Translations under genes and position numbers: made by a program | Assembly (NCBI GenBank): GCA_902780695.1 | Contig: CACZGM010000043.1 | Coordinates: forward strand, 1-42,026 | Source: an uncultured Ruminococcus sp. | GTDB taxonomy: Bacteria > Bacillota > Clostridia > Oscillospirales > Ruminococcaceae | Length of the DNA stretch: 42,026 bases | Direction: 5' to 3' | The notes under the pieces: model-generated | What the model saw: only the letters and a program-made list of their open reading frames with translations | The model's database searches: none | Told to the model about the DNA's origin: nothing | In this document: positions 1 through 42,026 of the stretch, piece by piece | How positions within the stretch are numbered: the stretch's first letter is position 1 | Layout of the letters: every line of letters starts with the position of its first letter

Positions 1-1
1 A

Positions 2-613: not shown

Positions 614-657
614 ACGATGCTTCATGGGATTCCGGAAAAATATAAGTAAAGCAGAAT

Positions 658-1785: not shown

Positions 1786-1837
1786 TGACGCCCTGTGCAG
1801 CGGCATACCGCCGCGTCTGACCCGAAAGGAGAACGAA

Positions 1838-3624: not shown

Positions 3625-3649
3625 TGAAAACCCCGAAAGGATTGATCTT

Positions 3650-10310: not shown

Positions 10311-10867
10311 CGATCAATTTTATACGCCACGGTAAAACGACCGGAAATATCGAAAGACGCTTTATCGGAAGAACAGACGAGCCGCTGTGCGATACGGGTA
10401 TTGAAGAGCTGAAAAGCATAGTCTGTCCCGACTGTGATATTCTGATATCAAGTCCGATGAAGCGCTGCGTGCAAACATCGGAAATACTGTATCCGCATAA
10501 GGAACCGGTTCTGTACAGTGAGCTTCGTGAATGTGATTTCGGCATATTCGAGGGAAAACGGCACGCGGAACTGGACGGTGATCCGATTTATATGCAGTGG
10601 ATAGCAAACAACGGAATGGAAGCTCCGCCCGGCGGTGAAGATGTTTCCGATTTCCGTGCGCGGTGTGTGCGTGGATTTCTGAAAGCCATCGATGATAATA
10701 AGACAGCCTGCACAATTTCGATAATAGCTCACGGCGGAACGATCATGTCGGTACTTGAAAGATTTGCCGTTCCGCACAAGGAATTTTACGAATATATCAC
10801 CGAAAACGGACACGGGTATGTGACCGGATTTGACGGTGAAACAATAAAGATAATCAGGAAAATATGA
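10307..10867 (+). CDS. cobC: Alpha-ribazole phosphatase-type histidine phosphatase CobC
   Basis: Histidine phosphatase superfamily member, in this context expected to remove the 5'-phosphate from alpha-ribazole phosphate or adenosylcobalamin phosphate. The catalytic FIRHGKTTGN places the phospho-accepting His at residue 8, and a second His lies in IIAHGGTIMS near residue 142. I chose a TTG start at 10307, 6 bases after an aaaggaga ribosome site and overlapping the previous stop. Longer in-frame versions from 10202 would run through the preceding gene and put extra residues before the conserved N-terminus. The length is 186 residues. Confidence 0.9.
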   Translation: MTINFIRHGKTTGNIERRFIGRTDEPLCDTGIEELKSIVCPDCDILISSPMKRCVQTSEILYPHKEPVLYSELRECDFGIFEGKRHAELDGDPIYMQWIANNGMEAPPGGEDVSDFRARCVRGFLKAIDDNKTACTISIIAHGGTIMSVLERFAVPHKEFYEYITENGHGYVTGFDGETIKIIRKI

Positions 10868-27688: not shown

Positions 27689-28729
27689 ATGAAAAACAAA
27701 CTATTTGCGGTAGCTGCGGCAGCAGGGATTATCCTTACGGCTGCGGGCTGCGGTAAGCAGGAAGCTGTCACCGGTGATACTTCTGTATCGGGCAAGATAG
27801 AAATATACACCTCGATGTATGAAGATATAATCGACAACATGGAAACGACCCTTGAACAGAAGTTCCCCAACCTCGATATTGAATTCTTCCAGGGCGGTTC
27901 CGGCACGATACAGTCTAAAATAGCCGCAGAGATGGATTCCGGAAAGCTCGGCTGCGATATACTCATGGTAGCTGAACCCTCCTATTCGCTGGAGCTCAAG
28001 GATGCCGGAATACTCCACCCGTACAAGTATGCGGACGCGGATAAGCTCATGTTCGATTACGACAAGGATGGCTACTGGTACCCCGTGAGAGTGTGCAACA
28101 TGGTACTTGCGTACAACCCCGACAAGTGCAAGAGGGAAGAAGTCCCCACTTCTTTCAAGGATTTCGCCGAAAACAGCGCAATGAAGAACGAGCTTTCGAT
28201 GAGCAACCCGCTCACATCGGGAACCGCATACTCTTCGGTTGTGGGACTGCTCGACAAGTACGGTGAGGGTTACTTCAAGTCGCTCAATGCACAGAACGTT
28301 GCGATAGAGTCCGGTTCTGTAGCGCTCACAAAGCTCGAAACGGGCGAGTGCAAGGAGATAATGGTACTCGAAGAGTCTGTACTTAAAAAGAGACAGGAGG
28401 AAAACTCATCTCTTGAAGTCATATATCCCGATGACGGAAGTATTCCGATCCCGTCGCCCATTATGATAATCGACGAAGCACACTGTGCAAACAACAATAT
28501 AGCCGCTGCCGAAGCTGTTGAGGAATTCTTCCTCTCTCCCGAGGGTCAGAAGCTCATCATAGACGGCTGGATGTACGGTGTAAGAAATGATATGGAGGAA
28601 CACCCCTACGACTCTGTTACTCTGCCGAAGCTGCTTGAAAACACTATCCCCGTTGACTGGGAAAAGTGCTATAAGCAGAGAGAAGAGATCCGCACGATGT
28701 TCCAGAACAACGTGACTATTCCCGGCTGA
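27689..28729 (+). CDS. ABC importer substrate-binding lipoprotein (ferric iron/AfuA-like family)
   Basis: A 346-residue lipoprotein with lipobox TAAGC (Cys21). The mature part has the two-lobed binding fold of the Fbp/Afu/phosphonate group: KIEIYTSMYEDIID, FFQGGSGTIQSKIAAEMDSGK, GCDILMVAEPSY, NMVLAYNPDKC, NPLTSGTAYSSVVGLLDKYG and EFFLSPEGQKLIIDG. The family takes Fe3+, but also phosphorylated sugars, phosphonates or thiamine. The adjacent Tyr pair of classical FbpA is not obvious, so the substrate is open. An aaagga ribosome site lies before the ATG. First gene of a three-gene operon. Confidence 0.88.
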   Translation: MKNKLFAVAAAAGIILTAAGCGKQEAVTGDTSVSGKIEIYTSMYEDIIDNMETTLEQKFPNLDIEFFQGGSGTIQSKIAAEMDSGKLGCDILMVAEPSYSLELKDAGILHPYKYADADKLMFDYDKDGYWYPVRVCNMVLAYNPDKCKREEVPTSFKDFAENSAMKNELSMSNPLTSGTAYSSVVGLLDKYGEGYFKSLNAQNVAIESGSVALTKLETGECKEIMVLEESVLKKRQEENSSLEVIYPDDGSIPIPSPIMIIDEAHCANNNIAAAEAVEEFFLSPEGQKLIIDGWMYGVRNDMEEHPYDSVTLPKLLENTIPVDWEKCYKQREEIRTMFQNNVTIPG

Positions 28730-28765
28730 TGTCTTCGTCCCGCGGCAGGGCATTAATATGATATC

Positions 28766-28791
28766 AAAGGGGCGTATTTCTGCGCCCCTTT
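28766..28791 (+). other. Intercistronic hairpin between binding protein and permease genes
   Basis: AAAGGGGCG (28766-28774) pairs perfectly with CGCCCCTTT (28783-28791). The T tract after it is short. Placed between an abundant lipoprotein gene and its permease gene, it would fit partial termination or mRNA 3'-end protection that keeps the lipoprotein in excess. Confidence 0.65.
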
Positions 28792-28812
28792 CTGCAATGA
28801 ACGAGGTGTTAA

Positions 28813-30498
28813 GTGGAAAAGAAGAGAAAGTTTTATTTTGACATAAAATGGCTGTTCATAATCGCGATAGTGGGGTTTCTGCTGGTATTTCAGGTTTTCC
28901 CGCTGCTGTATCTCGTTATCCGTGCGTTCTTCGTTGACGGACAGTTCACGACAGATGCGTTCACAAGGATATATTCGTCGGATATCAACCTGTCATGCGT
29001 GCTGAATACTCTCGTTGCCGCGTCCCTGTCAATGGTTTTTGGTGTGCTGATAGCTCTTCCGCTCGCGTTTCTTGTGGGGCGCACCAACCTTTACGGCAGA
29101 TCACTGTTCAGATCACTGTTCCTTATGACATACATGGTGCCGCCGTATGTGGGAGCTATGGCATGGCTGCGTCTGCTCAACCCGAAGGTAGGAACGCTGA
29201 ATATGCTTCTGATGAACGTATTCGGGCTGTCTGACGCGCCGTTCAATATTTACTCTATACCCGGTCTGGTATGGGTGCTTACCACGTTCTACTACCCTTA
29301 TGCGTTCATAACTCTGTCAAGGGCAATGGAGAATATGGATCCTTCGCTTGAGGAATCCGCGCGTATTTCGGGCTCTTCTCCGCTTAAGACGCTGTTCACC
29401 GTAACTCTGCCGCTTATGCTGCCGTCGATCGCCGCTTCCGCACTGCTCGTATTTGTGGCTGCCGCTTCCTGCTACGGCATACCGTCGATAATAGGCGCTC
29501 CGGCAAAGATATACACGATAACCACCCGTATAGTCGATTATGTGTATATCGGCTCGGCGGACGGGCTAACAGATGCTACCGTGCTTGCTGTGTTCCTCAT
29601 GGTACTTGCGCTGGTGATACTGTTCATATCGAATTTCGTTATCGGCAGGAGAGACTACATAATGATCTCCGGCAAGTCTGTACGTCCCAATATCGTCGAT
29701 CTGGGAAAGTGGAGACTTCCGCTGACCATACTTGTCGGTCTGTTTGCGGTCGTTGTCATAGTTATACCGTTCATATCGGTATTTGCGACCTCGTTCACCG
29801 TTAATATGGGTAAATCGGTATTCGAGGACGGCAACTTCACCTTAAAATACTGGGAGACTATCTTCTCCCGCAGCTCGATACGTTCATCGACAGGCAACAG
29901 CATTATCACATCTGTATGCGCGGCATCGTTCGGTATGATAATATGCATCATAATGGCATATCTTCTCAAGCGAACAAACGTACCGGGCAGAAAGATACCG
30001 GATTTTCTTATAACAGTCGGGTCCGGAACACCGAGCGTGGCAATCGCTCTTGCGCTGATAATGACCATGTCCGGAAGGTTTGGTATAAATATCTACAACA
30101 CGATATGGATAATGATAATCGCGTATATGATAAAATATATGCTTATGGGTATGAGGACTGTGGTCTCGGCGCTCTCACAGGTGAGTCCCTCGCTTGAAGA
30201 GGCGGCACAGGTGTCCGGAGCGGGGTGGCTGCGCAGGCTGAAGGATGTGATGTTCCCGCTGATAACTCCGTCTGTTGTGGCGGGCTGGTTCCTGATATTC
30301 ATGCCGTGCTTCTATGAGCTTACCATGTCGAATATGCTTTATTCCGACAAGACCAAATCACTCGGTATAGAGCTTTATCAGTACCAGACGTATCACAGTC
30401 AGCAGACTGCCGCAGCTCTCGCGGGGGGCATACTGATACTCGTTGTGGTGCTGAATGTCATCATGAACAAGGTAACAAAAGGAAAGTTTTCGATCTGA
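28813..30498 (+). CDS. ABC importer permease, fused double unit (AfuB/FbpB type)
   Basis: A 561-residue membrane protein with about twelve helices in two homologous halves. Each half ends with an EAA loop that docks the ATPase: EESARISGSSPLKTLFTVTLP near residue 190 and EEAAQVSGAGWLRRLKDVMFP near residue 465. This fused permease architecture is typical of the ferric-iron branch of type-I importers. The start is GTG 28813, with a gaggtg ribosome site 4-9 bases upstream. It partners the preceding lipoprotein and the following ATPase. Confidence 0.92.
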   Translation: MEKKRKFYFDIKWLFIIAIVGFLLVFQVFPLLYLVIRAFFVDGQFTTDAFTRIYSSDINLSCVLNTLVAASLSMVFGVLIALPLAFLVGRTNLYGRSLFRSLFLMTYMVPPYVGAMAWLRLLNPKVGTLNMLLMNVFGLSDAPFNIYSIPGLVWVLTTFYYPYAFITLSRAMENMDPSLEESARISGSSPLKTLFTVTLPLMLPSIAASALLVFVAAASCYGIPSIIGAPAKIYTITTRIVDYVYIGSADGLTDATVLAVFLMVLALVILFISNFVIGRRDYIMISGKSVRPNIVDLGKWRLPLTILVGLFAVVVIVIPFISVFATSFTVNMGKSVFEDGNFTLKYWETIFSRSSIRSSTGNSIITSVCAASFGMIICIIMAYLLKRTNVPGRKIPDFLITVGSGTPSVAIALALIMTMSGRFGINIYNTIWIMIIAYMIKYMLMGMRTVVSALSQVSPSLEEAAQVSGAGWLRRLKDVMFPLITPSVVAGWFLIFMPCFYELTMSNMLYSDKTKSLGIELYQYQTYHSQQTAAALAGGILILVVVLNVIMNKVTKGKFSI

Positions 30499-30501
30499 TT
30501 C

Positions 30502-30530
30502 ACAATTCACAATCGTGCATTGTGAATTGT
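30502..30530. repeat. 12-bp inverted repeat between permease and ATPase genes
   Basis: ACAATTCACAAT (30502-30513) and ATTGTGAATTGT (30519-30530) form a perfect stem with loop CGTGC. A partial copy, GAATTGTGAATG, occurs at 31686-31697, after the operon terminator. Motifs of this kind recur as small dispersed repeats in Ruminococcus-like genomes (from memory). No T tract follows. Confidence 0.7.
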
Positions 30531-30549
30531 CAGAAGCGGGGGATTATAA

Positions 30550-31617
30550 ATGTCTGTAATAACACTCGATCATGTTACAAAGAAATACGGAGATACAGTA
30601 GTGCTGAGCGACTTTACCGATGAATTCGGAGACGGTGAGTTCATAACTCTGCTCGGCCCCTCCGGCTGCGGGAAAACGACCATGCTGCGAATGATAGCGG
30701 GATTTGAAAAGCCGACGACCGGTGAGATACGCATAGACGGTGTAACGGTAAGCTCCGCGGACACATTCGTTCCCCCGGAAAAGCGGGGACTCGGAATGGT
30801 GTTCCAGTCTTATGCCGTGTGGCCGCACATGAACGTCTTCAATAATGTGGCGTATCCGCTGAAGATTCGGAAGGTGCCGAAAGAGGAGATCCGGGAAAAG
30901 GTCGAAAAGGTGCTGGAGACTGTGCATCTGAGCCAGTACGCAAAGAGAATGCCCTCCGCGCTTTCGGGCGGACAGCAGCAGCGTGTGGCGCTTGCCCGTG
31001 CGCTTGTTGCCGAACCTAAGGTCCTGCTGCTTGACGAGCCGCTCTCCAATCTCGACGCAAAGCTGCGTGAATGTATGCGGTTCGAGATAAAGGAGATACA
31101 GGAGCGTCTGCATATAAGCATCATTTATGTCACTCACGACCAGAGTGAGGCTATGACGATGTCGGACAGGGTCTTCGTCATTAATTCCGGTGTATTGCAG
31201 CAATCGGGGACCCCCACGGAAATATACCGCTCACCAAAAAACCAGTTCGTAGCCGATTTCGTAGGCAAGGTAAATTTCCTGAAAGGAATTTCCGAAGGTG
31301 GTAAGATAAAGATCAGCGGTATAGACGAAACGCTTGATTACAGCGGTGATCTTACCGGAGAGGTAGATATCGCGGTGCGTCCGGAGAATATACGCATAGT
31401 ACGGGAAAATGCGCATCTGCACGGAAAACTCGTGTCGGAGTTCTTCACGGGAGACAGCGACGACTGCCGCATCTCCGTCGGAGAAAGTGTTCTGCGTGTT
31501 ATTGCAGACGCGTCGGTGTACGGAAAGTACTCGCCCGATGATACTATCGGACTTGTAATAAATGATATGCTCGTATTTCCGCCTGCAAGCGACGATCTCA
31601 GAAAGATAATGACATAA
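30550..31617 (+). CDS. ABC importer ATPase (FbpC/PotA type)
   Basis: A 355-residue ATPase energising the preceding permease. Walker A is GPSGCGKTT (residues 36-44), the Q-loop is VFQSYAVWPHM, the signature LSGGQQQR, Walker B VLLLDEPLSNLD, and the H-loop VTHDQSEA. Residues from about 240 form a TOBE-type regulatory domain (IAVRPENIRIV), as in ferric-iron, sulfate and polyamine importers. It lies 51 bases after the permease, beyond the inverted repeat, and is followed by a strong terminator. Confidence 0.93.
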   Translation: MSVITLDHVTKKYGDTVVLSDFTDEFGDGEFITLLGPSGCGKTTMLRMIAGFEKPTTGEIRIDGVTVSSADTFVPPEKRGLGMVFQSYAVWPHMNVFNNVAYPLKIRKVPKEEIREKVEKVLETVHLSQYAKRMPSALSGGQQQRVALARALVAEPKVLLLDEPLSNLDAKLRECMRFEIKEIQERLHISIIYVTHDQSEAMTMSDRVFVINSGVLQQSGTPTEIYRSPKNQFVADFVGKVNFLKGISEGGKIKISGIDETLDYSGDLTGEVDIAVRPENIRIVRENAHLHGKLVSEFFTGDSDDCRISVGESVLRVIADASVYGKYSPDDTIGLVINDMLVFPPASDDLRKIMT

Positions 31618-31705: not shown

Positions 31706-32884
31706 TCATACGGTATTTATTATCCACTCGCATATCGTATCGAGCGCGAGTTTCCCGTTCCCGACGTTGCAGTGGTTCTGTGCGTCTTCCTTGTCGGTGA
31801 ACAGCCGGAATGTAAGGCTTTTCACATTTGTGAGCATATTTATCTCACGCCCGATCAGCCGGTAGTCGATGAAATGATCACCGTTCGCGCCAAGTATCAG
31901 CATATCCTGCGTTATTCTATCCGCCACCGGAGCAAGGTCGTAGAGCTTCAGCTTTTTTGCGTAGCTGTACGCGTCCGGCGCTTCGTAGGCGTAACAGCCG
32001 TGCTTTATTCCCCAGTCGATGATCGGGGATCTTTTTGCTTTCCTGCCGAAAACGAGATTGAGCAGCGGACGGGCATGGAGCTTCATCAGTGTGCGGAATG
32101 CCCGCTGTGTTGACTGCGGCTGCATACTTACCAGAATGTCCTGAAAACACGGAAATACCGACCAGGCGACTACTTTTGTGATGCGCTTGTCGAATGCGGC
32201 GGCACGGGGTGCGAGATATCCGCCGAGTGAAATCCCCACGATAGTAATGCCGGAAAGGTCGAAAAAGTCCAGTACAGCTTTGACGGGCTTTTCCCATTCA
32301 TGCGTAAAGTGCATACCCTGCATACGCATCACGCCGCCCTGTCCGGGACCCTCGAACAGATATACCTCAAACCCTTTTTCCTGCAAGTACAGGAGTGAGA
32401 ACAGGAACTCCTCGAAGTAGCTGTCGTTGCCGCCGTGTATCAGTATCTTCCCCTTGCATTCACCGAAGGGTCTGACGTGCATAACAGGCAGCTTCACATT
32501 CTCATAAGGCACATCATACCGTTCTATACGCGGGTTGTCCCCCTCGAAATAATCCGCGTAATATTCATAAAACAGCTTTGTTGCAAGCTCATAGTATTTC
32601 CGTTTGTCGGGGTCGCCGTCATACATGAAAAACTCGCTCATGCGGTAGTACGCTATAGCGTTTCCCGTTCGCTCCTCTGACATCGCCGTGTCGCCGAGCT
32701 TTATCAGCTCACGCTTCCAGTCGGCGCTGTTTTTTATCTTCCCGGAAATCGGCTCAATATCTTCGAGCCGGCCGCCGTCCCAGTTTATAACGCGGTTGAG
32801 CTGATAGTCGAAGTTGCGCTCGCCGTTCAGTTTATAAACGCCCTTTTTCAGTACTATCGGCTGTGATATGTCATATTTTTTCAT
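31706..32884 (-). CDS. Alpha/beta hydrolase (FrsA/esterase-like)
   Basis: A 392-residue cytoplasmic protein with no signal peptide. The N-terminal 125 residues are a helical region. The hydrolase core starts near VMHVRPFGECKGKILIHGG. The catalytic triad is visible: Ser in VGISLGGYLAP, Asp in GANGDHFID, and His in DAQNHCNVGN close to the C-terminus. YLFEGPGQGG is also typical of this esterase group. The substrate is unknown. ATG 32884 is preferred over 32890 because it lies 7 bases from the aagggag ribosome site. It follows the iron-type - strand operon by 54 bases with no obvious terminator, so it may be its last gene. Confidence 0.85.
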   Translation of the reverse strand: MKKYDISQPIVLKKGVYKLNGERNFDYQLNRVINWDGGRLEDIEPISGKIKNSADWKRELIKLGDTAMSEERTGNAIAYYRMSEFFMYDGDPDKRKYYELATKLFYEYYADYFEGDNPRIERYDVPYENVKLPVMHVRPFGECKGKILIHGGNDSYFEEFLFSLLYLQEKGFEVYLFEGPGQGGVMRMQGMHFTHEWEKPVKAVLDFFDLSGITIVGISLGGYLAPRAAAFDKRITKVVAWSVFPCFQDILVSMQPQSTQRAFRTLMKLHARPLLNLVFGRKAKRSPIIDWGIKHGCYAYEAPDAYSYAKKLKLYDLAPVADRITQDMLILGANGDHFIDYRLIGREINMLTNVKSLTFRLFTDKEDAQNHCNVGNGKLALDTICEWIINTV

Positions 32885-32938
32885 TGCCATTCTCCCTTTT
32901 TTCTGCGGTCATTCAGTCACATTACAATAAGCGACTGC

Positions 32939-33622
32939 TTACGATACACTTATCACACCCGCATTCATTGAATAGCATATATCCGCATATTCTGCCGCGT
33001 CCTTTTCGTGCGACACCATAAATACCGATGTTCCGTTTCCGGCAGCTTCCTTAAGAATATTCAGCACAAGCTCTGTATTCTCGTCATCGAGGTCGCAGGT
33101 CGGCTCGTCTGCAAATATTACATCGGGCTTTCGTATCATTGCACGCGCTATCGCCATTCTGCGAAGCTCTCCGCCGGACAGTGCCGAGGGCAGTTCGTCT
33201 TCAAGCTCCGCTATGCCGAACCGTGACATAAGCTCACGGGCATAAATGTGCGCAGCTGTGCGTTCATCGGAAGTACCGTGTATCATAAAGGAGAGGCAGA
33301 TGTTTTCGATCACGGTGAGACTTCCGACAGCGGTCTGTCCCTGCGGTACAACTCCGATGTGCTTCATGCGGAAATCCGAAAGCCTGTCGTCATCGAGCGC
33401 GCAGATGTCGGTATCACCGTACATCACTTTTCCCGAAGCGGGTGCAAGCAGTCCCGCAAGCATATTCAGCAGCGTCGATTTTCCGCTTCCGGAACGTCCC
33501 ATAAGCAGCGTTAATTTTCCCTGTTCTATCATTATATCAGTGGGTTTTACAGCAATAAACCGGTTCGTGCCTCTGCCTTGACGGATAAATTCCTTGCTTA
33601 TATTATCTGCGGCGATCGTCAT
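32939..33622 (-). CDS. ABC transporter ATPase (LolD/MacB type)
   Basis: A 227-residue ATPase: Walker A GRSGSGKST near residue 42, signature LSGGELRR, Walker B VIFADEPTCDLDDEN, H-loop VSHEKDA. LolD/MacB-type ATPases pair with FtsX-fold permeases, and its start overlaps the stop of such a permease by one base. It is the second ABC ATPase in this operon. The two are clearly different sequences, so the locus encodes two separate ABC complexes. Confidence 0.92.
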   Translation of the reverse strand: MTIAADNISKEFIRQGRGTNRFIAVKPTDIMIEQGKLTLLMGRSGSGKSTLLNMLAGLLAPASGKVMYGDTDICALDDDRLSDFRMKHIGVVPQGQTAVGSLTVIENICLSFMIHGTSDERTAAHIYARELMSRFGIAELEDELPSALSGGELRRMAIARAMIRKPDVIFADEPTCDLDDENTELVLNILKEAAGNGTSVFMVSHEKDAAEYADICYSMNAGVISVS

Positions 33623-34827
33623 CAGTTGTCACCTCTCAATATCAGCCCCGCGTCGAGCCTGCTTATCCGGTGTGCGGAATAAGCGGAGGCTGCTGCTCCC
33701 GCGGCTGCGGAAACGGCAGCGGCAGCGGTACAGAGAACCGCTATTACCCATGCTTCCGGAAGCAGGAACGGAAGGCCTATGCTTTCCTCGATAAGTCCGT
33801 TGAACGGAAGCATTATCAGAAGTCCCGCCGCTATTCCGGCTATACCGCCCGAAAGTGTTATTATAAGCGCTTCCGAAACGACAGTACGGGATATTTTTCT
33901 GCGTGAGGCTCCCGCTATGCGAAGTACGGCAAATTCTTTCTTTCGTTCGTTGACCGACAGTGTGAACGCGAGGAACAGTATCACAAGTCCGAGGAGCCAT
34001 ACCGCGCACATCAGCACTCCGATGATACCGGAAACGCCGGTCAGGCTGTCCGAAACGCCGGATATCATATCTTTCGTCCTGAACGATTTTGTACGGCGGA
34101 CGTGAAGATTGAGATCGTTAAGCACCTCGTCCACGGGATGATCGTCGGACACCTTTATCAGAATGCAGGACACGACCCTGTCGGGGTCGATACCCTTGAA
34201 ATCGTTCATTCCAAGCTCCAGCGACGAGGCTATCAGTTTCTTTATCGTGTCCGTATTCGTATAGACTGCGGTATCGAGATCGGTTCCGGTCTTGTCGAGC
34301 TTCGCAACAACATTGCATTCGACATTGTAGAATGTTATCGTATCTCCGACAAATACGCTCAGGTCATTGCCGACGACCACATCGAGAAGTCCGAGCTCCC
34401 CGCCGGTGCTTTTGCGTATCCACGGAGATACCGTGAAATCCGTTTCGGGGTCATATCCGATTATCTGCAAGGGGACAGAGCAGCAGCCGGAGCTTGCCGA
34501 CGCGAGAAAGAGCTGCGCGGATATTTTCTCTATGCCTTCACGCGCGGCGACTTTGTCGTAATATGATCTGTCCATATAGAAGTAACCCATGCTGCCTTGC
34601 AGGACGATATTTTCGAAATTCTTTTTTGAAGCTGCGGATGCAGGCACTACCATAATGTCCGCGCCGAGACGCGCTTCGAGAGCCCCCAGACCCGTTTTCA
34701 GGCTTGTCACCGTTATTGTTCCGATGACTATCGAAGCAGCCATTACCGCGGTGAGTATCATCAGTGCGAGCGACCTTGCGGGTCTCCCTTTTACATTCTT
34801 GAACGAAAGGCTGTCGGTAAGTTTCAT
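33622..34827 (-). CDS. FtsX-type ABC transporter permease
   Basis: A 401-residue membrane protein with one N-terminal helix (about 17-40), a large extracytoplasmic domain (about 45-265) and three C-terminal helices in the FtsX-fold region, including KEFAVLRIAGASRRKI. This is the MacB/FtsX layout, used for mechanotransmission or export rather than classical import. ATG 34827 was chosen because of the ggaag ribosome site and the 4-base overlap with the DUF4418 gene. Its N-terminal region (SLKTGLGALEARLGADIMVVPA) resembles the DUF2318-linked permeases further upstream in the operon. Confidence 0.88.
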   Translation of the reverse strand: MKLTDSLSFKNVKGRPARSLALMILTAVMAASIVIGTITVTSLKTGLGALEARLGADIMVVPASAASKKNFENIVLQGSMGYFYMDRSYYDKVAAREGIEKISAQLFLASASSGCCSVPLQIIGYDPETDFTVSPWIRKSTGGELGLLDVVVGNDLSVFVGDTITFYNVECNVVAKLDKTGTDLDTAVYTNTDTIKKLIASSLELGMNDFKGIDPDRVVSCILIKVSDDHPVDEVLNDLNLHVRRTKSFRTKDMISGVSDSLTGVSGIIGVLMCAVWLLGLVILFLAFTLSVNERKKEFAVLRIAGASRRKISRTVVSEALIITLSGGIAGIAAGLLIMLPFNGLIEESIGLPFLLPEAWVIAVLCTAAAAVSAAAGAAASAYSAHRISRLDAGLILRGDN

Positions 34828-35240
34828 TTGTTTTCTTCCTTCTTGCGGAGTATCATTACAGCGTTCACAAGCGCTGCTGCCGCGATAAGGCAGGATATTA
34901 CAATGACAGCGGGGCGCATTGCCGTATGACACCGCATCATCGGCATTTTGCAGAGCGGTATAAGTATATCCGGCATTACCGCTGTGATTGCAGCGATCGG
35001 TATTAATGCGAGTGAAGCGCCGGATGCTGCTTTTCCTTTTCCGGAAACAAGCACGATCAGAGATATTGCCGTAAGGGCAAGTCCCGCGCCGAATACCGCC
35101 TGCTCAGCCCAGTGACAGTTCATGAATGATCCGTCGTCATGTGCGGCGCATGCCGGAAATATTAATTTTGTGCCGGCTGTGAGCATGATACTCAGAATTA
35201 ATAAAATAATGCCGCCGATCCTGCTTTTGATCTTGTTCAT
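34824..35240 (-). CDS. DUF4418 family membrane protein
   Basis: A 138-residue protein with four hydrophobic helices (about 8-27, 47-66, 75-95 and 108-131). Two Cys-His sites face the loops, NCHWAEQA near residue 42 and MRCHTAMRP near residue 103, with further Cys at FPACAAH and IPLCKMP. The Cys/His pattern suggests metal or haem contact, but no function is proven. It overlaps both neighbours by 4 bases, so it is probably made together with the following FtsX permease. Confidence 0.82.
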   Translation of the reverse strand: MNKIKSRIGGIILLILSIMLTAGTKLIFPACAAHDDGSFMNCHWAEQAVFGAGLALTAISLIVLVSGKGKAASGASLALIPIAAITAVMPDILIPLCKMPMMRCHTAMRPAVIVISCLIAAAALVNAVMILRKKEENK

Positions 35241-36160
35241 TGTTTTTCTCCCCGATAGATATAATTGCTTTCCGACATCGGATATCTCTCATAGAATTCC
35301 GCTGTCGAATATTGTTCGTCTCTTATGTGCGTTTCCGAAAATTCCTTGTCGCTTTTCAGAAAATTATGGTGAGTGCCGCTCTGTGAATCCCACGTTACAT
35401 CTATATTGTAATAAACTCCGGCTAACCCGGTTATATTCCAGGCATGATATCCGATGCCGTCTTCGTTGACCGCATTACCCGTTATAACACGGGCATCTAT
35501 ACCCACTTCCCGAAGAAGTCTGTACATAAGAACACTGTAACCCTGACAGCAGGCACAGCCGTTTGTGAGCGCACCGTAAGCCGTGGATTTGAGATGATAG
35601 TGAGGATTCTTCTTGTGTACCTTGTCGTACTTCACATTTTCATAAACGTAGTTATATACCGCGCTTATTTTTTCGTATTCGCTTTTCCCGCCGACATCAA
35701 GTTCCGCAACGATCTCCGATATTCTTTCGTCAACAGTCTTTTCCTGATTCGGAGTTGTGAAATACTCCGGAAAAATATCTATGGTATAGGAGAACCTGTC
35801 TCCGTTTTTCTCGTAACTGTATTCGGTGCGGTAGCCGCCGTACTGGTGATAAAGATAATCGCCCATGCACGGGTCGCCGGTCTCGGACATTGCGAACATC
35901 ACAAGCTCGTCGATAAGAGGGTAGATATCGTCCATATTGTCCGAGCCGGACTCGTAGCATACCGTTATTTTCGGACACCGCGCCCTGAATGCTTCCCGTA
36001 TCTCTTCAATGACACTGTCGGCATTGCCGAATGTGATGCTGAGATCGCGGCGCACATCGTAATGATATCCCGGTACGGCGCAGCCGGAAACTGCGATGAT
36101 AAAGACCGCACCGATAACGGCAGATATTTTCTTTGTTTTCAGAGTAATTATGCGAGCCAC
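35237..36160 (-). CDS. Transglutaminase-like lipoprotein
   Basis: A 307-residue exported protein with lipobox AVSGC (Cys27). The C-terminal half is a transglutaminase-like papain-fold domain: ISAVYNYVYENVKYD, then nucleophile Cys in NGCACCQGYSVLMYRLL, His in GIGYHAWNI and Asp in NIDVTWDSQ. Bacterial members act as proteases or amidases, or as inactive binding domains. The catalytic triad here looks intact. A GTG start at 36160 overlaps the preceding gene by 13 bases and has only a weak ribosome site, implying coupling. Its role in this redox/iron-type operon is not obvious. Confidence 0.87.
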   Translation of the reverse strand: MARIITLKTKKISAVIGAVFIIAVSGCAVPGYHYDVRRDLSITFGNADSVIEEIREAFRARCPKITVCYESGSDNMDDIYPLIDELVMFAMSETGDPCMGDYLYHQYGGYRTEYSYEKNGDRFSYTIDIFPEYFTTPNQEKTVDERISEIVAELDVGGKSEYEKISAVYNYVYENVKYDKVHKKNPHYHLKSTAYGALTNGCACCQGYSVLMYRLLREVGIDARVITGNAVNEDGIGYHAWNITGLAGVYYNIDVTWDSQSGTHHNFLKSDKEFSETHIRDEQYSTAEFYERYPMSESNYIYRGEKQ

Positions 36161-36696
36161 CTCACAAAGTACACAACGAAAGCTATACCCGAAACAAGCA
36201 GCAGAACCGAGAATATGACCGCCATATCCGCGATAAGTTCTTTTGCTCCCCGGATACCGGATCCAAGCATCATCGGGCGTATGTTTGTCACTATATGCAG
36301 GAGAACGGACAGCACGAGCAGTATCGACATTATCAGCTGCGGCACATCAAACAGATTAAGCCGGAAAGCGCCGCCGCTTCCGTGTCCCATGAAAAGAATG
36401 ATATGCGCCGCTACGAAAAACATCACAGAAAAGCCGCTTATGCGTCTTATCCAGAACAGCTTGTTTTCCCGGAAATATGAAGCTCCAGACTTTTTCATCG
36501 CAGCAAGCGTATCTGCGGTCAGCTTTATGCCGATGACAGTATGCGCACCGACAGCTGCTATCAGCAGCCACGAACCGATCTTCATAATGACATTTCCGCC
36601 AGGGACAAGTCCGGTGAGCTGTAAGCTCCCGATAATGATATGAAGGAGAAACAGCGTTATGATCGTATGTGCGAGTATAGCGTTGAATTTTCTCAT
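36148..36696 (-). CDS. Four-helix membrane protein resembling cytochrome b subunits
   Basis: A 182-residue protein with four hydrophobic helices (about 6-28, 42-62, 87-106, 120-140) and a C-terminal fifth (152-177). Histidines lie in or near the helices at residues 10, 19, 52, 98, 105 and 134. WIRRISGFSVMFFVAAHI closely resembles the haem-ligand segment of SdhC/fumarate reductase cytochrome b. Haem binding and electron transfer across the membrane are therefore plausible but unproven. A GGAGG ribosome site precedes the ATG. It overlaps the preceding gene by 4 bases. Confidence 0.8.
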   Translation of the reverse strand: MRKFNAILAHTIITLFLLHIIIGSLQLTGLVPGGNVIMKIGSWLLIAAVGAHTVIGIKLTADTLAAMKKSGASYFRENKLFWIRRISGFSVMFFVAAHIILFMGHGSGGAFRLNLFDVPQLIMSILLVLSVLLHIVTNIRPMMLGSGIRGAKELIADMAVIFSVLLLVSGIAFVVYFVRWLA

Positions 36697-37196
36697 ACAG
36701 ACTCGTCCTCCACAGCGATATAATCGACGTTCTTTCCGTCATATATGCCTGTGATATCATATCTTCCGGCAGCTTCGGCGGAAACGATCATCAAATCGAA
36801 CCTGCCGTTCTCTGCCTTTGACAGCGTCAGCACGGGATCACCCGCTGTTACCTTCATCTGGTTTTCCGGGAGCCGCGACATGAAGCTCTGCGCAAGCGTC
36901 AGCGCACCCGAATCGCCTTTCAGAGTCACACATTCGATGTCGTCGAAAATTATCGTGAACTCGCCGCCGGAAAAAAATTCGTGCCACGCGGCAAGGTCGC
37001 TTTCGCTTCTGTGACGGTCACGGTTGATGAGCACCGTGTAGCTGCCGGAGGGTTTGTCAATAATTACAGAAGCGGAAGAAACCGCGTCCGCGCCGCCGGA
37101 AAAGACTGTAAATCCTCCGGCAAGTGCGAACGGCACCGCGATAAGCAGTGATATTCCCGCAAGACAGACTGCGATATGTTTTATGACCCGCGTCAT
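36693..37196 (-). CDS. Membrane-anchored extracytoplasmic protein of unknown function
   Basis: A 167-residue protein with an N-terminal hydrophobic segment (about 8-30) that could be a signal anchor, followed by an apparently beta-rich domain. I recognise no family. It lacks Cys in the mature part and has no obvious metal motif. It begins exactly at the stop of the FMN-binding lipoprotein gene (1-base overlap) and ends overlapping the cytochrome-b-like gene, so it may bridge those two products (inference from position). Confidence 0.78.
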   Translation of the reverse strand: MTRVIKHIAVCLAGISLLIAVPFALAGGFTVFSGGADAVSSASVIIDKPSGSYTVLINRDRHRSESDLAAWHEFFSGGEFTIIFDDIECVTLKGDSGALTLAQSFMSRLPENQMKVTAGDPVLTLSKAENGRFDLMIVSAEAAGRYDITGIYDGKNVDYIAVEDESV

Positions 37197-37642
37197 TATT
37201 TCTGCTCCGCCTGTGCGAGCGCGGCATCGGCAGCTTCAACGAACTGTCGGTAGTTAATGGTCGCGCCGCTTATCGCGTCAACCCCGTCAACACTGCCTGC
37301 AAGAACAAGCTGTTCCGCATATTTTTCGCAGGCTCCCACTGCCTTCTGCGCCTTGTTGTAAAAATCCTTGTTTGCGATACTGCCGGACTTCATTCCGTAG
37401 TCTTCGCCCTTTACCGTGCCGTCAAGCTCGTAAGTCCTGAACGTGCAGTCCGTAATTGCGCCGTCCTTTATCGTAACGGTCACAACACCGTATCCGTTGC
37501 CTTCTTCGGAGCCGTCTTCATTGATATACTCCGCACTTCTCGCTTCATACGTTCCGTCCATGTATGAAACAGCGGAACCGCCGCAGCCCGCGAGCATCGC
37601 AATACCCGCGAAAGCCGCGATGACCGCATATCTTTTTTTCAT
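37196..37642 (-). CDS. FMN-binding domain lipoprotein with covalent flavinylation motif
   Basis: A 148-residue lipoprotein with lipobox MLAGC (Cys20). The mature part is one FMN-binding domain (NqrC/RnfG C-terminal type): YMDGTYEA, VVTVTIKDGAITDC, and DAISGATINYRQF at residues 122-134. The DxxSGAT pattern puts Thr128 at the position where ApbE attaches FMN through a phosphoester. This makes it a candidate extracytoplasmic electron carrier. No ApbE flavin transferase gene is in the window. It overlaps the ABC ATPase gene upstream by 4 bases. Confidence 0.9.
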   Translation of the reverse strand: MKKRYAVIAAFAGIAMLAGCGGSAVSYMDGTYEARSAEYINEDGSEEGNGYGVVTVTIKDGAITDCTFRTYELDGTVKGEDYGMKSGSIANKDFYNKAQKAVGACEKYAEQLVLAGSVDGVDAISGATINYRQFVEAADAALAQAEQK

Positions 37643-38343
37643 ATTTCCACCTCATTGTCGAATTTTATCTCACCGGTAAAATTCTCGTTTATCGTTTCCT
37701 TGTGCAGCTTTCCGTTTCGCAGATATACCGTTCTCTGCGCGACTTCCGCGACCTCGGGGTCGTGTGTTACGACTATGAGCGTCGTACCCTCGCTGTGCAG
37801 CTTGTGGAACAGATCGACAACAATCTTTTCGTTCGCGTCGTCGAGGTTTCCGGTAGGCTCGTCGGCAAGGATTATCTCCGGGTAGTTTATCAGTGCGCGT
37901 GCAACGCATACTCTCTGCTGCTCGCCGCCGGAAAGCTGACTCGGCAGATGCTTGGCTCTGTCCGCAAGACCGACGCGGTCAAGCGCTTCAAGCGCTTCCT
38001 TTTCATCGGGAACACTGTGGTAATACTGTGCAAGCATCACGTTTTCTATCGCCGTAAGATATCCGACAAGGTGGAACTGCTGGAATATCAGCCCTATCTT
38101 GTCGCGGCGTATAGCGGTAAGATTTTTCGCGCTCTCCTTTGCAATATCGACACCGTCGAGCAGGACTTCGCCTTTGCTGGGCTTATCCATGCAGCCGATA
38201 ATGTTCATCATTGTACTCTTTCCGGAGCCCGAAGGTCCCATGATCGAGAGCCATTCGCCCTTTTCGACCTTCAGATTGACATCATCGAGTGCGTGAAGGT
38301 CTCCGTATATTTTGTAGATGTTTTTTAATTCAAGCAGACTCAT
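37639..38343 (-). CDS. ABC transporter ATPase linked to DUF2318 permeases (LolD/MacB type)
   Basis: A 234-residue ATPase: Walker A GPSGSGKST near residue 38, signature LSGGEQQRV, Walker B IILADEPTGNLDD, H-loop VTHDPEVA. In FtrABCD/P19-type iron loci, one such ATPase serves the two FtsX-like permeases encoded next to the DUF2318 protein, and the same order is seen here. It is separated from the upstream permease gene by 118 bases containing the four-hairpin array, the only sizeable gap in the operon. Confidence 0.92.
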   Translation of the reverse strand: MSLLELKNIYKIYGDLHALDDVNLKVEKGEWLSIMGPSGSGKSTMMNIIGCMDKPSKGEVLLDGVDIAKESAKNLTAIRRDKIGLIFQQFHLVGYLTAIENVMLAQYYHSVPDEKEALEALDRVGLADRAKHLPSQLSGGEQQRVCVARALINYPEIILADEPTGNLDDANEKIVVDLFHKLHSEGTTLIVVTHDPEVAEVAQRTVYLRNGKLHKETINENFTGEIKFDNEVEI

Positions 38344-38376
38344 AATAGCTCACCTATTTCTGAATATTCATTTGGG

Positions 38377-38460
38377 GTACAGCGTCACGCTGCCGCCGGT
38401 GCAGGGCGGCGTTAGCCCTGCCGCTGTCCGCGTAGGACAAGCGCGTAAGCGCCGCTGTAC
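38377..38460. repeat. Array of four hairpins enclosed by an outer 8-bp stem
   Basis: GTACAGCG (38377-38384) and CGCTGTAC (38453-38460) form a perfect outer stem. Inside lie CAGCG/CGCTG (38380-38392, sharing bases with the outer stem), CAGGGC/GCCCTG (38402-38420), TGTCC/GGACA (38425-38439) and GCGC/GCGC (38441-38452). At or next to each loop is a related GCGTxA or GCGTA sequence (GCGTCA, GCGTTA, GCGTA, GCGTAA). The array starts one base after the permease stop codon. It is GC-rich and non-coding. It could be a mobile palindromic repeat or a structured mRNA element. Confidence 0.75.
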
Positions 38461-38461
38461 A

Positions 38462-39616
38462 TTACTCGCCTTTGAGCACAAGCGCCGGATCGACCTGTGT
38501 GGCGCTTCTTATCGGAAGCAGGCACGAAACGCCGGTGACCGCTACCGACACAAGTATCGTTATCGGTATCAGCAGCGGCATGAATGAGATCGAGCTGCTG
38601 AAAACATTGATGCTGACCTGCTGTGCGAAGATAAATCCGAGAGCAGCACCTATCGTTCCGCCTGCCGCGCCGAGCAGTATGCCCTCGCCCATAAATTCCG
38701 CAATAATTCCTCCGTTGGACGCGCCTATCGCTTTTCGCAGACCTATCTCTCTGCGGCGTTCGGTTACTACCGCTGTCATAGTCGTCGCAACGCATATCAT
38801 TGTGAGAGCAAGCACTATGACCGTTACAAGCAGTACAAGCGCCTGCAGCTTCGTGAGCACCGCTGATTCGGATTCCGTCACGCGCTTGACGAGCCTTGCG
38901 CTTACTCCTGGAACATTCGCGCTTATATTGTCCGCATATTCATTCAGCTTGTCGGACTTTGCCGATACCGAAAGCTCCGCTAGATCTATCTTTCCGGAAA
39001 TACCCGTAAGCTCTTCGAGGTCGGTCATCGTGATATATACATAATCCTCTTCGGGGCCGCCCGTTTCGAGAATGCCCGCCACCGTCATATCCATCGTGTT
39101 GTCAAGTATGGTCTCGCCCTCTTCCGGTTCCGGGTTTTCGGGTGTATAGTTCACAGTCACCTCGTCGCCTGTGCCGAGACGGAACTGCTCTGCAAGAGAT
39201 GCGCCGAGAAGTATCTGACCGCTGCCGGACGGGTAAGAGCCCTCCACAGACCAGTACGGGCTTGTGAGTTTTGCCTGCTCCATATCCGTTCCCGCTGCCA
39301 TGACGGGAAGCTCATGTATTCTTACCGATTCATAGCGGTAAGGTGTCACGCCGACGATATCCTTGCTGTCTATGTACGACTTTCCTTTGGTGATATCGTC
39401 ACTTGTGAAATGTCCGTCCGTGGGCGTGAATATCATATTCGCGCCGTAGTTGCGGAACTGTGCGCCCATTTGTCTCGGAACATCGACATATATCGTAACA
39501 AGTCCCGAAAGGATCGCCGCGCCTATCGCGATAGAAAGCAGGGCAACTATCATTCTTGACCGGCGGCGTATAAGCGAAGCGGTTATCATTCGCAAAAACA
39601 TTTTTCTCTTATTCAT
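38462..39616 (-). CDS. FtsX-type ABC permease of the DUF2318-linked system (second)
   Basis: A 384-residue membrane protein with an N-terminal helix (about 22-42), an extracytoplasmic domain (NYGANMIFTPTDGHF onward) and three C-terminal helices, with TERRREIGLRKAIGASNGGI before the second. It ends SATQVDPALVLKGE, a typical MacB/FtsX terminus. ATG 39616 was chosen because GGAGG lies 7 bases upstream; the in-frame ATG at 39652 falls inside the previous gene. With the preceding permease it should form a heterodimer. Confidence 0.9.
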   Translation of the reverse strand: MNKRKMFLRMITASLIRRRSRMIVALLSIAIGAAILSGLVTIYVDVPRQMGAQFRNYGANMIFTPTDGHFTSDDITKGKSYIDSKDIVGVTPYRYESVRIHELPVMAAGTDMEQAKLTSPYWSVEGSYPSGSGQILLGASLAEQFRLGTGDEVTVNYTPENPEPEEGETILDNTMDMTVAGILETGGPEEDYVYITMTDLEELTGISGKIDLAELSVSAKSDKLNEYADNISANVPGVSARLVKRVTESESAVLTKLQALVLLVTVIVLALTMICVATTMTAVVTERRREIGLRKAIGASNGGIIAEFMGEGILLGAAGGTIGAALGFIFAQQVSINVFSSSISFMPLLIPITILVSVAVTGVSCLLPIRSATQVDPALVLKGE

Positions 39617-39629
39617 GATGCCGCCTCCA

Positions 39630-40916
39630 TTATCTTCCGTGAAGAACTTCACACGGACTCAGCCGCAGAAGCATTCTTATCGCGGGTATGCAGCCTGCAA
39701 GAGTAACGATTAACACAAGCACCGCAACGAGCGGGATTACCACAGGTCTCATCGTTATCGCCGAGCCGAATACCGAATGACCGATTATCTGCGCAAAGCC
39801 CCAGCCCGCGAAAAATCCGGCTGTGCCGCCGAATACAGCGGTCACCGTTATTTCGGTGAGCACAAGTCCCGAAACGGAGGAATTCTGTGCGCCTATCGCC
39901 TTCATAAGTCCCATTTCCGCACTGCGCTCCATTACGCTTGCGGTAACGAGATTGCAGATGCCGAGCGCCGCGCCGATAAGGCTGAGTATCGTTATCAGCG
40001 ACATAAGGAGCTGTGTCTTTTCGAGTATAGCGCCTTCGGAATCGGCTACCTGTCTTACGGGAGAGGCTACCGAATCCGTAATTACCTCCTGTATCTGATA
40101 GCATATCGAGCTTGCGTATGCTGTGCAGTACCATGTTTCGTACTGCGCGATAGTCAGGGATTTAGGATCTTTAGCCGCCTTTATCGCAAGGTCGTTTTCC
40201 GGGGTAGTGAGAGCGCTGACTTCAATGCTGTCGATCTTTCCGTCCAGACCGTCAAGGGACTGCGCCGTATCTGCCGGCATGAATATCTTGTCGTCCTCAT
40301 CGCCGCCTGCATCGAAAATACCGACAACATTCAGCGAAATATCCGAAACAGTGCCATTCAGGTGCAGAGTATCGCCCGACTTTATCCCGAGCTTTTCTGC
40401 AAGCGCTTTCCCGACCATTGCACCGTCTGCGCTGCCTGTCTGCTCGTCGAGCCATTTGCCGTCAACTATCTCCCACCAGCTTCTCATGCTCGTTACGCCC
40501 GCATCGAGCTGTTCGCCTGTCGGGAGCTCCATGTGGTGATTGAACCATGTTCCCACAGCAGAAACTTCCGTCCCGTCGTCGAGCTTCACCGAAGCGTTGA
40601 TGAACGGCGCATAGTCGATGATGTTGAATGCCCAGAATATCGTCTTGATATTTCCGAGCTCGTCCTCGCGCAGATATGCACCGGTTCCGCCTTCGCCCTC
40701 AACTTCGTACAGGGAGGAAAGAACCGAGTTCTCCTTCGGTACGACGGTGATGTTCGCGCCGTATGTCTTGAGTTCCTGATTCACTTTGTCGCCGACATCG
40801 AGCATTACGCTCAGCATTGCCGTTGCGAGCGACGCACCGAGTGCTATGGTGAACGCGATCATCAGCATTTTCTTCCACTGCCGGAACAGCGTTCCGAATA
40901 TCATTCTGAAAAACAT
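39630..40916 (-). CDS. FtsX-type ABC permease of the DUF2318-linked system (first)
   Basis: A 428-residue membrane protein of the same layout: N-terminal helix (about 16-38), a large extracytoplasmic region (YGANITVVPKENS to about 285), then three helices with MERSAEMGLMKAIGAQNSSV and the C-terminal LLRLSPCEVLHGR. The YGAN-I segment is shared with the second permease, which shows common ancestry. It lies 6 bases after the DUF2318 gene and 13 bases before the second permease gene. In Campylobacter P19-type loci a pair of such permeases follows the DUF2318 gene. Confidence 0.9.
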   Translation of the reverse strand: MFFRMIFGTLFRQWKKMLMIAFTIALGASLATAMLSVMLDVGDKVNQELKTYGANITVVPKENSVLSSLYEVEGEGGTGAYLREDELGNIKTIFWAFNIIDYAPFINASVKLDDGTEVSAVGTWFNHHMELPTGEQLDAGVTSMRSWWEIVDGKWLDEQTGSADGAMVGKALAEKLGIKSGDTLHLNGTVSDISLNVVGIFDAGGDEDDKIFMPADTAQSLDGLDGKIDSIEVSALTTPENDLAIKAAKDPKSLTIAQYETWYCTAYASSICYQIQEVITDSVASPVRQVADSEGAILEKTQLLMSLITILSLIGAALGICNLVTASVMERSAEMGLMKAIGAQNSSVSGLVLTEITVTAVFGGTAGFFAGWGFAQIIGHSVFGSAITMRPVVIPLVAVLVLIVTLAGCIPAIRMLLRLSPCEVLHGR

Positions 40917-40922
40917 ACCGCG

Positions 40923-42026
40923 TCACATCCTTCCCGTAAATTCGCTCTCATGTTCGAGAAGTCCGGCTATCGGAACATATATAGTGCCGTTCTCTATATG
41001 ATAGTCAATGACTATCGGATTGCAGCCGCCCTTGAATCCTATCGTGTTGATGTTCATAACAACGTCGCACAGCTTGCATACGACCTGACCGTCCTTTTCG
41101 TAATATCCCGTTTCGCCGCATATATCGCAGGCATCAAGCCCGATCCCGTATGACGAGGAATTCGGCTTTTTGATGACGATGAAGCGTATTTCCTTGCCGT
41201 TTTCGGTGTTGTAGCCGAAGCGGTGAAGATGACCGTCATCGACCATATCGAACGATACGCAGATGTTTCCGTCGATCTCCGGTGCGTGTTCCACGGGAGA
41301 CAGCTCTATCGGCTTGTTGACATAAGCCTTTACCGCGGTCATGTTCAGCACGGACATGACAAGACAGCATACTACCGTTACCGACCAGCGTCGTATAACG
41401 ATATATTTCTTTTTTATCTTGCGTTTCTGTGCTGGATTGTCATACGGCTCCTTCGCACGAAGGCTTTTTATCAGCAGCCCTATCGGTATCAGCAGTGCGA
41501 TTGCCATTGCGGCGTAAATGAAAACATCGGAATGGTTTGACGAGAATTTTACGATATTGAAAAGGAATGTGTTGGATTTTATGAAGCGCTTTGTGATAAG
41601 CACGTTGATAATGACGGTTAACTGTCTTACCGCGTTTGCGGAAAGCGCAAGCGTCATTATAACAAAGGCAGATGTCTTTGAAAGCCTTGAAGTTCCGGCT
41701 CTGACGGCGAGACAGGTTATGAGCATGAGCACGCCGCCGAGCACCGCGCCGATATTCTTGAAAAGCATCGTTGTCGATACTACCGAGTTTTCGTTCAGCC
41801 ATATCGTATAAGGATAGCCGAACCAGTCCGGCATCGCGTAAACCAGCATTCCCGCGAGTATCAGTGTGAGAGAAGCAAGTGATATGACACCGCAGCTTCG
41901 CGGCAGTTTCCGCCGAAGAGCCGCTGAGATGAAGAAGATCACTGTCAGCCCGAGCGATATGCTGAATATGTACAGATTGCAGAGTGCGGTGTCCACCAGC
42001 TTTGTCGCGTTCTTCATAAGTGACAT
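40923..42026 (-). CDS. DUF2318 membrane iron-sulfur protein (FtrD-like), possibly 5'-incomplete
   Basis: A 367-residue membrane protein with six helices (about 15-38, 44-64, 88-108, 117-140, 170-190, 215-235) followed by an extracytoplasmic C-terminal domain. This domain is DUF2318: HRFGYNTENGKEIRFIVIKK, DACDICGETGYY, VVCKLCDVVMN and GGCNPIVIDY, giving two CxxC pairs plus one Cys for an Fe-S centre. In FtrABCD/P19 systems the protein is thought to supply electrons for periplasmic iron redox chemistry. An ATG falls exactly at the window edge, so the true start may be here, nine bases inside (MKNATK), or beyond the edge. Confidence 0.88.
   Translation of the reverse strand: MSLMKNATKLVDTALCNLYIFSISLGLTVIFFISAALRRKLPRSCGVISLASLTLILAGMLVYAMPDWFGYPYTIWLNENSVVSTTMLFKNIGAVLGGVLMLITCLAVRAGTSRLSKTSAFVIMTLALSANAVRQLTVIINVLITKRFIKSNTFLFNIVKFSSNHSDVFIYAAMAIALLIPIGLLIKSLRAKEPYDNPAQKRKIKKKYIVIRRWSVTVVCCLVMSVLNMTAVKAYVNKPIELSPVEHAPEIDGNICVSFDMVDDGHLHRFGYNTENGKEIRFIVIKKPNSSSYGIGLDACDICGETGYYEKDGQVVCKLCDVVMNINTIGFKGGCNPIVIDYHIENGTIYVPIAGLLEHESEFTGRM

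Follow-up and report, generated by a model that had tools for sequence, protein, structure and literature searches.

How might an operon for iron uptake come to carry a cytochrome b and a flavin-bearing lipoprotein, and which way would electrons run through them? The question is raised by a stretch of 42,026 nucleotides (nt) from an uncultured Ruminococcus sp. (contig CACZGM010000043.1 of GenBank assembly GCA_902780695.1; hereafter 'the window'), in which positions 32939..42026 hold eleven minus-strand open frames whose domains, by frame list and family searches, are those first named for them. An initial annotation took the DUF2318 protein, two FtsX permeases and an ATPase for the core of a P19/FTR1-type iron locus, and the genes that follow for an electron chain across the membrane. 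We estimate at roughly 0.6 the probability that both parts hold, that is, that this is an iron-uptake operon together with a transmembrane relay serving it. A P19/FTR1 operon of the FetMP-FetABCD type is by itself highly likely, and a relay that serves iron uptake is a reasonably well-supported reading of the remainder.

The iron-uptake core and its conservation

The frames are closely packed, with nine of the ten junctions within -13 to +13 bp (the cytochrome b and transglutaminase-like genes overlap by 13 bp) and the tenth, FtsX2-ABC1, measuring 118 bp. As the window is the whole of its contig (C43 of genome G000), the DUF2318 gene is truncated at its 5′ end. FTR1 and P19, which the initial annotation had asked to look for beyond position 42026, were both found in this genome on another contig, C54, whose first 2.7 kb encode on the minus strand an FTR1 with a TM2 domain, a P19 and then, in the first ~90 nt, what appears to be the missing DUF2318 N-terminus. 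This FTR1 is the genome's single match (PF03239, 2.4e-20; two REXXE motifs, REGLE and REGAE) and is adjoined by the P19 gene (PF10634, 5.1e-45). The ends of C43 and C54 share no exact overlap of at least 15 bases, and alignment with relatives places ~20 DUF2318 residues in the gap; because the genes run FTR1-P19-DUF2318-FtsX1-FtsX2-ABC1-FMN in relatives whose contig spans the region unbroken, the last being the flavin mononucleotide (FMN) lipoprotein, the two contigs very probably adjoin. FTR1 itself is 541-611 amino acids (aa) long in five extended operons versus 396-461 aa in 14 non-extended loci, and all three extended-operon copies tested have the C-terminal TM2 domain; the FTR1 gene of L007 lies at 974-2647.

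A scan of named-genome contigs with the cytochrome b alignment and two short peptide patterns yielded 65 loci, a lower bound that favours close relatives; their labels are Ruminococcus, Ruminiclostridium, Oscillospiraceae, Lachnospiraceae, Eubacterium and some further names, and the titles of many point to ruminant gut samples. Where at least 8.6 kb is visible upstream of cytochrome b, the full eight-gene core, from FTR1 to a membrane-anchored protein described below, is present in the window's order at 42 of 46 loci (L055, L058, L061 and L068 lack it), and chance association of the genes is rejected. Here L058, with 10 kb upstream and no core, is scored as a miss, and without it the count is 42 of 45; an alternative rule admitting two shorter loci that show FTR1 gives 44 complete loci of 47, all 44 in the window's order. 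Loci L020, L032, L033 and L058 are on the same contigs as L008, L011, L012 and L090 and were omitted from gene-presence counts, as was L010, which has no cytochrome b; L019 was placed by a tblastn match with no separate cytochrome b frame called, and several loci are near-identical (e.g. L068/L073, L069/L076). The FMN and anchored-protein genes lie upstream of cytochrome b at 55 of the 63 loci with 1.3 kb upstream. Genes for FrdA and FrdB, homologs of the two soluble subunits of fumarate reductase, follow cytochrome b directly at 48 of 56 loci with at least 3.2 kb downstream and 3.9 kb further in another four. Among 31 long core-bearing loci, the second permease and ATP-binding cassette (ABC) genes, FtsX3 and ABC2, occur in 27, the transglutaminase-like gene in 22 and DUF4418 in 21. 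Family matches and conserved order alike thus uphold the first assignment of the iron core, and the frames first named for the extension are present in the window.

Beyond these close relatives the two parts of the operon have different distributions. Within the window's family, a close DUF2318 homolog occurs in five of 148 genomes, the window's included, and a phylum-wide draw found DUF2318 in 59 of 398 genomes. From 19 of these 59 we took 20 stretches, some of them cut by contig ends, comprising all 16 listed long-frame loci other than the window and four short-frame loci. The set FTR1-P19-DUF2318-FtsX-FtsX-ABC is present at 14 of the 16 long-frame loci, and profiles for the anchored protein, cytochrome b, FrdA and FrdB matched in none of the 20 stretches; the core is therefore broad and the extension restricted.

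The extended operons also share a candidate operator. TTAG-N6-CTAA lies within 300 bp upstream of the FTR1 frame or in its first 60 bp at 38 of 45 loci (0.43 expected), and the stricter GTTAG-N6-CTAAC occurs in the same region at 25 of 45 (0.02 expected). At 14 non-extended FTR1 loci the palindrome was found once and a Fur box nine times. A classical 15-mer Fur box was rejected as operator of the window's operon, at least 12 of 14 matching positions being reached at only two of 45 extended loci. Strict sites number 12 in the window's genome versus two for a reversed control, and stand beside FTR1, a ZIP transporter, an E1-E2 ATPase and a 2Fe-2S thioredoxin-like ferredoxin, as well as ABC transporters and other genes. 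At L007, FTR1 and a metal transporter of the ZIP family are divergently oriented (listed at 3083-3895 and 2718-3048), each with its own GTTAG-N6-CTAAC. The palindrome was rejected as a general iron box: FeoB was found in all five genomes surveyed for iron and redox functions, with six matches, and only two of these have it next to feo (L162, and L012, where feo and FTR1 have an intergenic region in common). It is absent from the feo stretch of the window's own genome; five feo stretches were examined in all, two of which (L163 and L165) run into the end of their contig within 1 kb past the feo frame. A metal-linked regulator behind the palindrome is possible, and the site may resemble DtxR-type boxes, on which a literature search found nothing.

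A probable complex-II-type electron path with predicted flavin carriers

The window's cytochrome-b-like and anchored proteins have no match in Pfam, and their assignment draws on alignments and models. Four of the alignments comprised 54, 48, 41 and 38 sequences from 66, 62, 61 and 56 profile matches, respectively, and residue counts were redone on all sufficiently long matches. In the cytochrome b, four histidines are invariant (64 of 64 copies), the five-helix model matches the complex-II anchors 9lay_C and 2bs3_C in Foldseek with probability 1.00 and weak E-values (best 4.8e-3), and a profile match to 6lum_C reaches 5.8e-5. An unrelated membrane protein was rejected on these grounds, weak though the Foldseek E-values are, and by profile and model the protein is an anchor of the complex-II type. 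FrdB has Fer2_3 and Fer4_8 domains and 11 conserved cysteines in 53 of 53 copies. For FrdA, the residues that handle dicarboxylate or flavin adenine dinucleotide (FAD) were placed by alignment to the solved structures 6lum and 4ysx. The dicarboxylate residues are retained in 61 of 61 copies as far as each extends (one is truncated ahead of two such positions), and glutamine replaces the FAD-linking histidine in all 61, so that the covalent 8-alpha-histidyl FAD of complex II is not expected. We also considered L-aspartate oxidase and rejected it for FrdA: the top SdhA models reach 414 and 379 bits and the top NadB model 334 (all below cut-offs), and FrdB and cytochrome b adjoin.

Two flavin carriers would stand at the outer face. 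The motif D-x-x-[ST]-G-A-[ST] is present in 58 of 58 aligned copies of the FMN lipoprotein, and ApbE, which recognizes this motif, is encoded in all five genomes (in G028 split across two contig ends); we infer that the lipoprotein is covalently flavinylated. For flavinylation by ApbE, seven residues suffice, serine is usable, and a change of Gly to Ala roughly halves the yield (PMC12052999). The anchored protein consists of one transmembrane helix, a linker of low model confidence and a single-lobe alpha/beta domain whose best Foldseek match is PDB 3noh. A relative encoded in the stand-alone module L174 is similar to 3noh in sequence as well (2.6e-40) and is assigned to DUF6921. The linker has a motif D-A-x-x-x-A-[ST], with Ser or Thr in the final position in 61 of 61 copies; the ApbE motif is canonical in 12 of 48 copies and present in relaxed form in 35 of 48 (0.075 expected by shuffling), and is canonical in the relatives from L173, L174 and L175. 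We regard the anchored protein as a probable second FMN carrier adjoining the membrane. 3noh (RUMGNA_00914 of Ruminococcus gnavus) is named only as a putative peptide-binding protein; its crystal construct starts within a VTGAT motif, and we found no paper on RUMGNA_00914 or DUF6921 in the open-access literature. At L174 (3436-5978), two genes neighbouring the module start, to judge by eye from their N-termini, like a heavy-metal P-type ATPase and an ArsR-type regulator.

Making menaquinone or ubiquinone requires UbiA. No match over cut-off was found in any of the five genomes, versus 14 of 14 controls, so the relay is probably quinone-free, unless foreign quinone is taken up. RnfD-like proteins were found in four of the five; the fifth, G028, has the operon, and RNF as the sole electron path was rejected on this ground.

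In the mechanism that we propose, P19 would bind iron outside the cell and FTR1 would carry it in, as in the known system. The outer side of the relay would comprise the FMN lipoprotein, probably the anchored protein, and the cysteines of DUF2318; from there electrons would pass inward by way of two haems in the FrdC-like cytochrome b, then along the Fe-S clusters of FrdB to FAD in FrdA, most likely ending in the reduction of fumarate in the cytosol. FTR1-type uptake elsewhere obtains its oxidation step from enzymes that use oxygen or peroxide; here that step would be provided by electrons taken outside from Fe(II) or DUF2318 thiols and dropped on fumarate. The window's own operon is among the four loci of 56 from which FrdA and FrdB are absent (with L013, L014 and L022), and the sole Fer2_3 match of its genome belongs to a set of FrdB, FrdA and a further cytochrome b on contig C38, whose FrdA has the dicarboxylate site. 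Trees place this FrdA with the operonic FrdA of the near relatives L015, L016 and L021 and with L074, and the C38 cytochrome b with L065 and L074; the operonic cytochrome b would pair with this set or act alone. Second cytochrome b-FrdA-FrdB loci are also found in the window's clade at L089 (4636-7439), L074 (4977-7802) and L065 (4766-7585), with no anchored-protein gene by profile and no palindrome. A chain of haem and FMN, as initially suggested, is encoded, with the qualification that the path is most likely of the fumarate-reductase type and that two of its subunits are not in the window's operon.

Direction of electron flow and competing explanations

Several observations weigh against the joint reading of iron uptake and relay. 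Besides the lack of FrdA and FrdB in the window's operon, the window's copy of the anchored protein has a non-canonical motif, and the phylum-wide core loci described above show no relay, which is therefore not required everywhere. In G035 the operon has neither cytochrome b nor FrdAB, and another contig carries the anchored protein, cytochrome b, FrdA and FrdB. A class-wide draw found the cytochrome b in six of 391 genomes, the window's included; all five other copies have FrdAB beside them, and an iron core was not seen over the visible 2.8 to 12 kb, two of the five being weak matches with no anchored-protein match. Likewise, cytochrome b-FrdAB stands without an iron core ahead at L055, L060, L061, L065, L068, L074, L089 and L090/L058 (at L060, FTR1-P19-DUF2318 is located after the cytochrome b module). 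Ferrochelatase over cut-off was found in none of the five genomes, and in only eight of 14 controls, so that haem import may be needed. G019 has a UbiA match of 18.9 bits, below cut-off. Finally, Fer2_3 has one match in each of the five genomes, and in three the operonic FrdB is that sole match, so FrdB might simply be the cell's fumarate reductase.

The direction of flow is a separate matter, on which we are tentative. Relatives with noncovalent FAD reduce fumarate and cannot oxidise succinate (PMC9557727), and since FrdA lacks the FAD-linking histidine it is fumarate reduction, and with it inward flow, that is favoured. Inward flow to fumarate also fits the absence of detected quinone synthesis and the role suggested for the thioredoxins FetE and FetF of Campylobacter jejuni, which occupy the slot of the FMN protein and are thought to be oxidases; the same paper, however, draws FetEF as relaying reducing power, which counts against it (PMC10783030). 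Inward flow, although it is the direction we prefer, falls somewhat short of even odds. The complete scheme, an anaerobic ferroxidase in which a quinone-free complex of the fumarate-reductase type draws electrons from outer Fe(II) or DUF2318 thiols to fumarate by way of two covalently flavinylated proteins and two haems, is speculative.

It is conceivable, if doubtful, that the relay runs outward instead, as in the initial annotation, where a chain from haem to FMN to Fe-S might reduce or mobilise iron outside the cell: electrons from succinate, or from a flavoprotein docking on FrdB, would pass via haem to FMN and reduce outer Fe(III) to Fe(II) for P19 and FTR1. All the parts are encoded (a haem-type cytochrome b, FMN and Fe-S proteins), and iron reduction by an FMN-binding or thioredoxin protein has been suggested for P19 systems (PMC6083913, PMC8238504), a point that also tells against our preferred direction. 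The glutamine of FrdA is at odds with succinate as donor, however, and no quinol feed of the cell's own is expected where no UbiA passes its cut-off; FeoB, present in all five genomes for Fe(II), may moreover lessen the need for a reductase. The direction may therefore be the opposite of that first supposed, since FrdA lacks the covalent-FAD histidine.

We consider it improbable that FrdAB and cytochrome b are a housekeeping fumarate reductase, respiratory or succinate-forming and fed outside by RNF-type FMN proteins, that merely sits in an iron operon. The single Fer2_3 match per genome, the RnfD-like proteins of four genomes and the modules found apart from iron genes would all fit such an enzyme. 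Its constant position within the iron operon at most loci would not, and G028 keeps the operon with no RnfD-like match; nor was the palindrome found in the 300 bp ahead of any of eight cytochrome b modules without a core ahead (L060, L061, L065, L074, L089, L090, L173 and L174), and the window's clade retains the operonic cytochrome b despite the loss of FrdAB. Least likely is an extension that acts on the ABC complexes and not directly on iron, with the FtsX/ABC pairs, the transglutaminase-like lipoprotein and DUF4418 serving the envelope or the maturation of proteins, and the redox part setting the thiol state of DUF2318: these genes are frequent in the long core-bearing loci, and fetB, fetC and fetD are needed for growth of C. 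jejuni on low iron, their substrate being unknown (PMC10783030), but the transglutaminase-like and DUF4418 genes are missing downstream at about a third of these loci, FrdAB being usually retained, and the present data identify no substrate.

Known systems and neighbouring genes

The core resembles fetMP-fetABCDEF of C. jejuni (cjj81176_1649-1656), where FTR1, P19, DUF2318, two FtsX permeases and an ATPase occur in the same order (PMC6083913, PMC10783030). The operon differs in having the FMN lipoprotein in the place of FetE/FetF, a TM2 domain on FTR1 (in the three copies mentioned) and additional genes, of which relatives have eight and the window six. P19 systems are spread over many phyla (PMC6083913), and a core followed by an FMN-binding seventh gene has already been published for Gram-positive clusters (PMC6083913; Meheust et al., 2021, PMC8238504, with 260 clusters). 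That flavinylation survey puts P19 systems among clusters without a transmembrane electron path of their own, whereas here a complex-II-like path is encoded in the operon. Compared with Wolinella FrdABC and Chloroflexus Sdh, the relay has the same FrdA and FrdB families, five-helix cytochrome b fold and four invariant histidines; it differs in the glutamine of FrdA, in the lack of UbiA over cut-off and in the anchored-protein gene just upstream of cytochrome b at most loci. The initial annotation regarded the whole set as undescribed. This no longer applies to the core and its FMN-binding gene; the extension (anchored protein, cytochrome b, FrdA, FrdB, transglutaminase-like lipoprotein, DUF4418 and second FtsX/ABC pair) seems undescribed in the open-access literature searched.

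Table 1. Genes and motifs of the operon in the window, in order of transcription (pLDDT, predicted local distance difference test)
Feature	Position	Strand	Basis
DUF2318/FtrD-like membrane protein (FetA type)	40923..42026	-	PF10080 1e-29; alignment with relatives; 5′ end cut
FtsX1, MacB_PCD + FtsX permease (FetB type)	39630..40916	-	74-78% identity to four relatives
FtsX2, MacB_PCD + FtsX permease (FetC type)	38462..39616	-	Family search; frame opens at 39652
ABC1 ATPase (FetD type)	37639..38343	-	ABC_tran 1.9e-34; 86-90% identity to four relatives
FMN-binding lipoprotein	37196..37642	-	PF04205 6.1e-8; motif DAISGAT
Predicted flavinylation motif DAISGAT of FMN lipoprotein	37259..37279	-	Motif definition from PMC12052999
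Anchored protein (transmembrane helix, linker, 3noh-type domain)	36693..37196	-	Alignment of 48; model pLDDT 85.8; Foldseek 3noh E 4e-6
Motif DAVSSAS of anchored protein, right behind transmembrane helix	37068..37088	-	Flavinylation-like, Ser for Gly
Cytochrome b, complex-II (FrdC/SdhC) type	36148..36696	-	Five helices; His19, 52, 98, 134; model pLDDT 90
Transglutaminase-like lipoprotein	35237..36160	-	Transglut_core 1.6e-17; Cys, His, Asp positions conserved
DUF4418 membrane protein	34824..35240	-	PF14387 2.8e-25; conserved Cys/Met/His (47 copies)
FtsX3 permease	33622..34827	-	Family search
ABC2 ATPase (LolD/FtsE-like)	32939..33622	-	Frame and family search; ortholog in 27 of 31 long core-bearing loci

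Among the remaining genes of the extension (Table 1), the transglutaminase-like lipoprotein retains its Cys, His and Asp in at least 95% of 35 aligned copies. DUF4418 has two C...MxC(H) patterns, with Cys, Met and His retained in most copies, as if for metal binding in or near the membrane. Some 48 bp past the last ABC gene lies an alpha/beta hydrolase (Abhydrolase_6; 31706-32890, minus strand), and a three-gene ABC importer on the plus strand (27689-31617; SBP_bac_6-type binding protein, two-domain permease and ATPase) converges on the end of the operon. Among NCBIfam models, those of putative 2-aminoethylphosphonate importers score best for it, none of them reaching its cut-off, and one for a ferric-iron ATPase scores as well. 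Positions 1-14290 of the plus strand hold a long gene run that resembles anaerobic cobalamin synthesis when judged by eye, without a family search.

With a complex-II-type electron path in a fixed operon and no detected quinone synthesis, the FMN or thioredoxin step of P19 systems becomes testable by known biochemistry. The relay would add a use of complex-II homologs that does not involve quinones, and it hints at what the uncharacterised 3noh family may do. If the ferroxidase scheme is true, an anaerobic ferroxidase drives iron import by FTR1 and P19 without oxygen.

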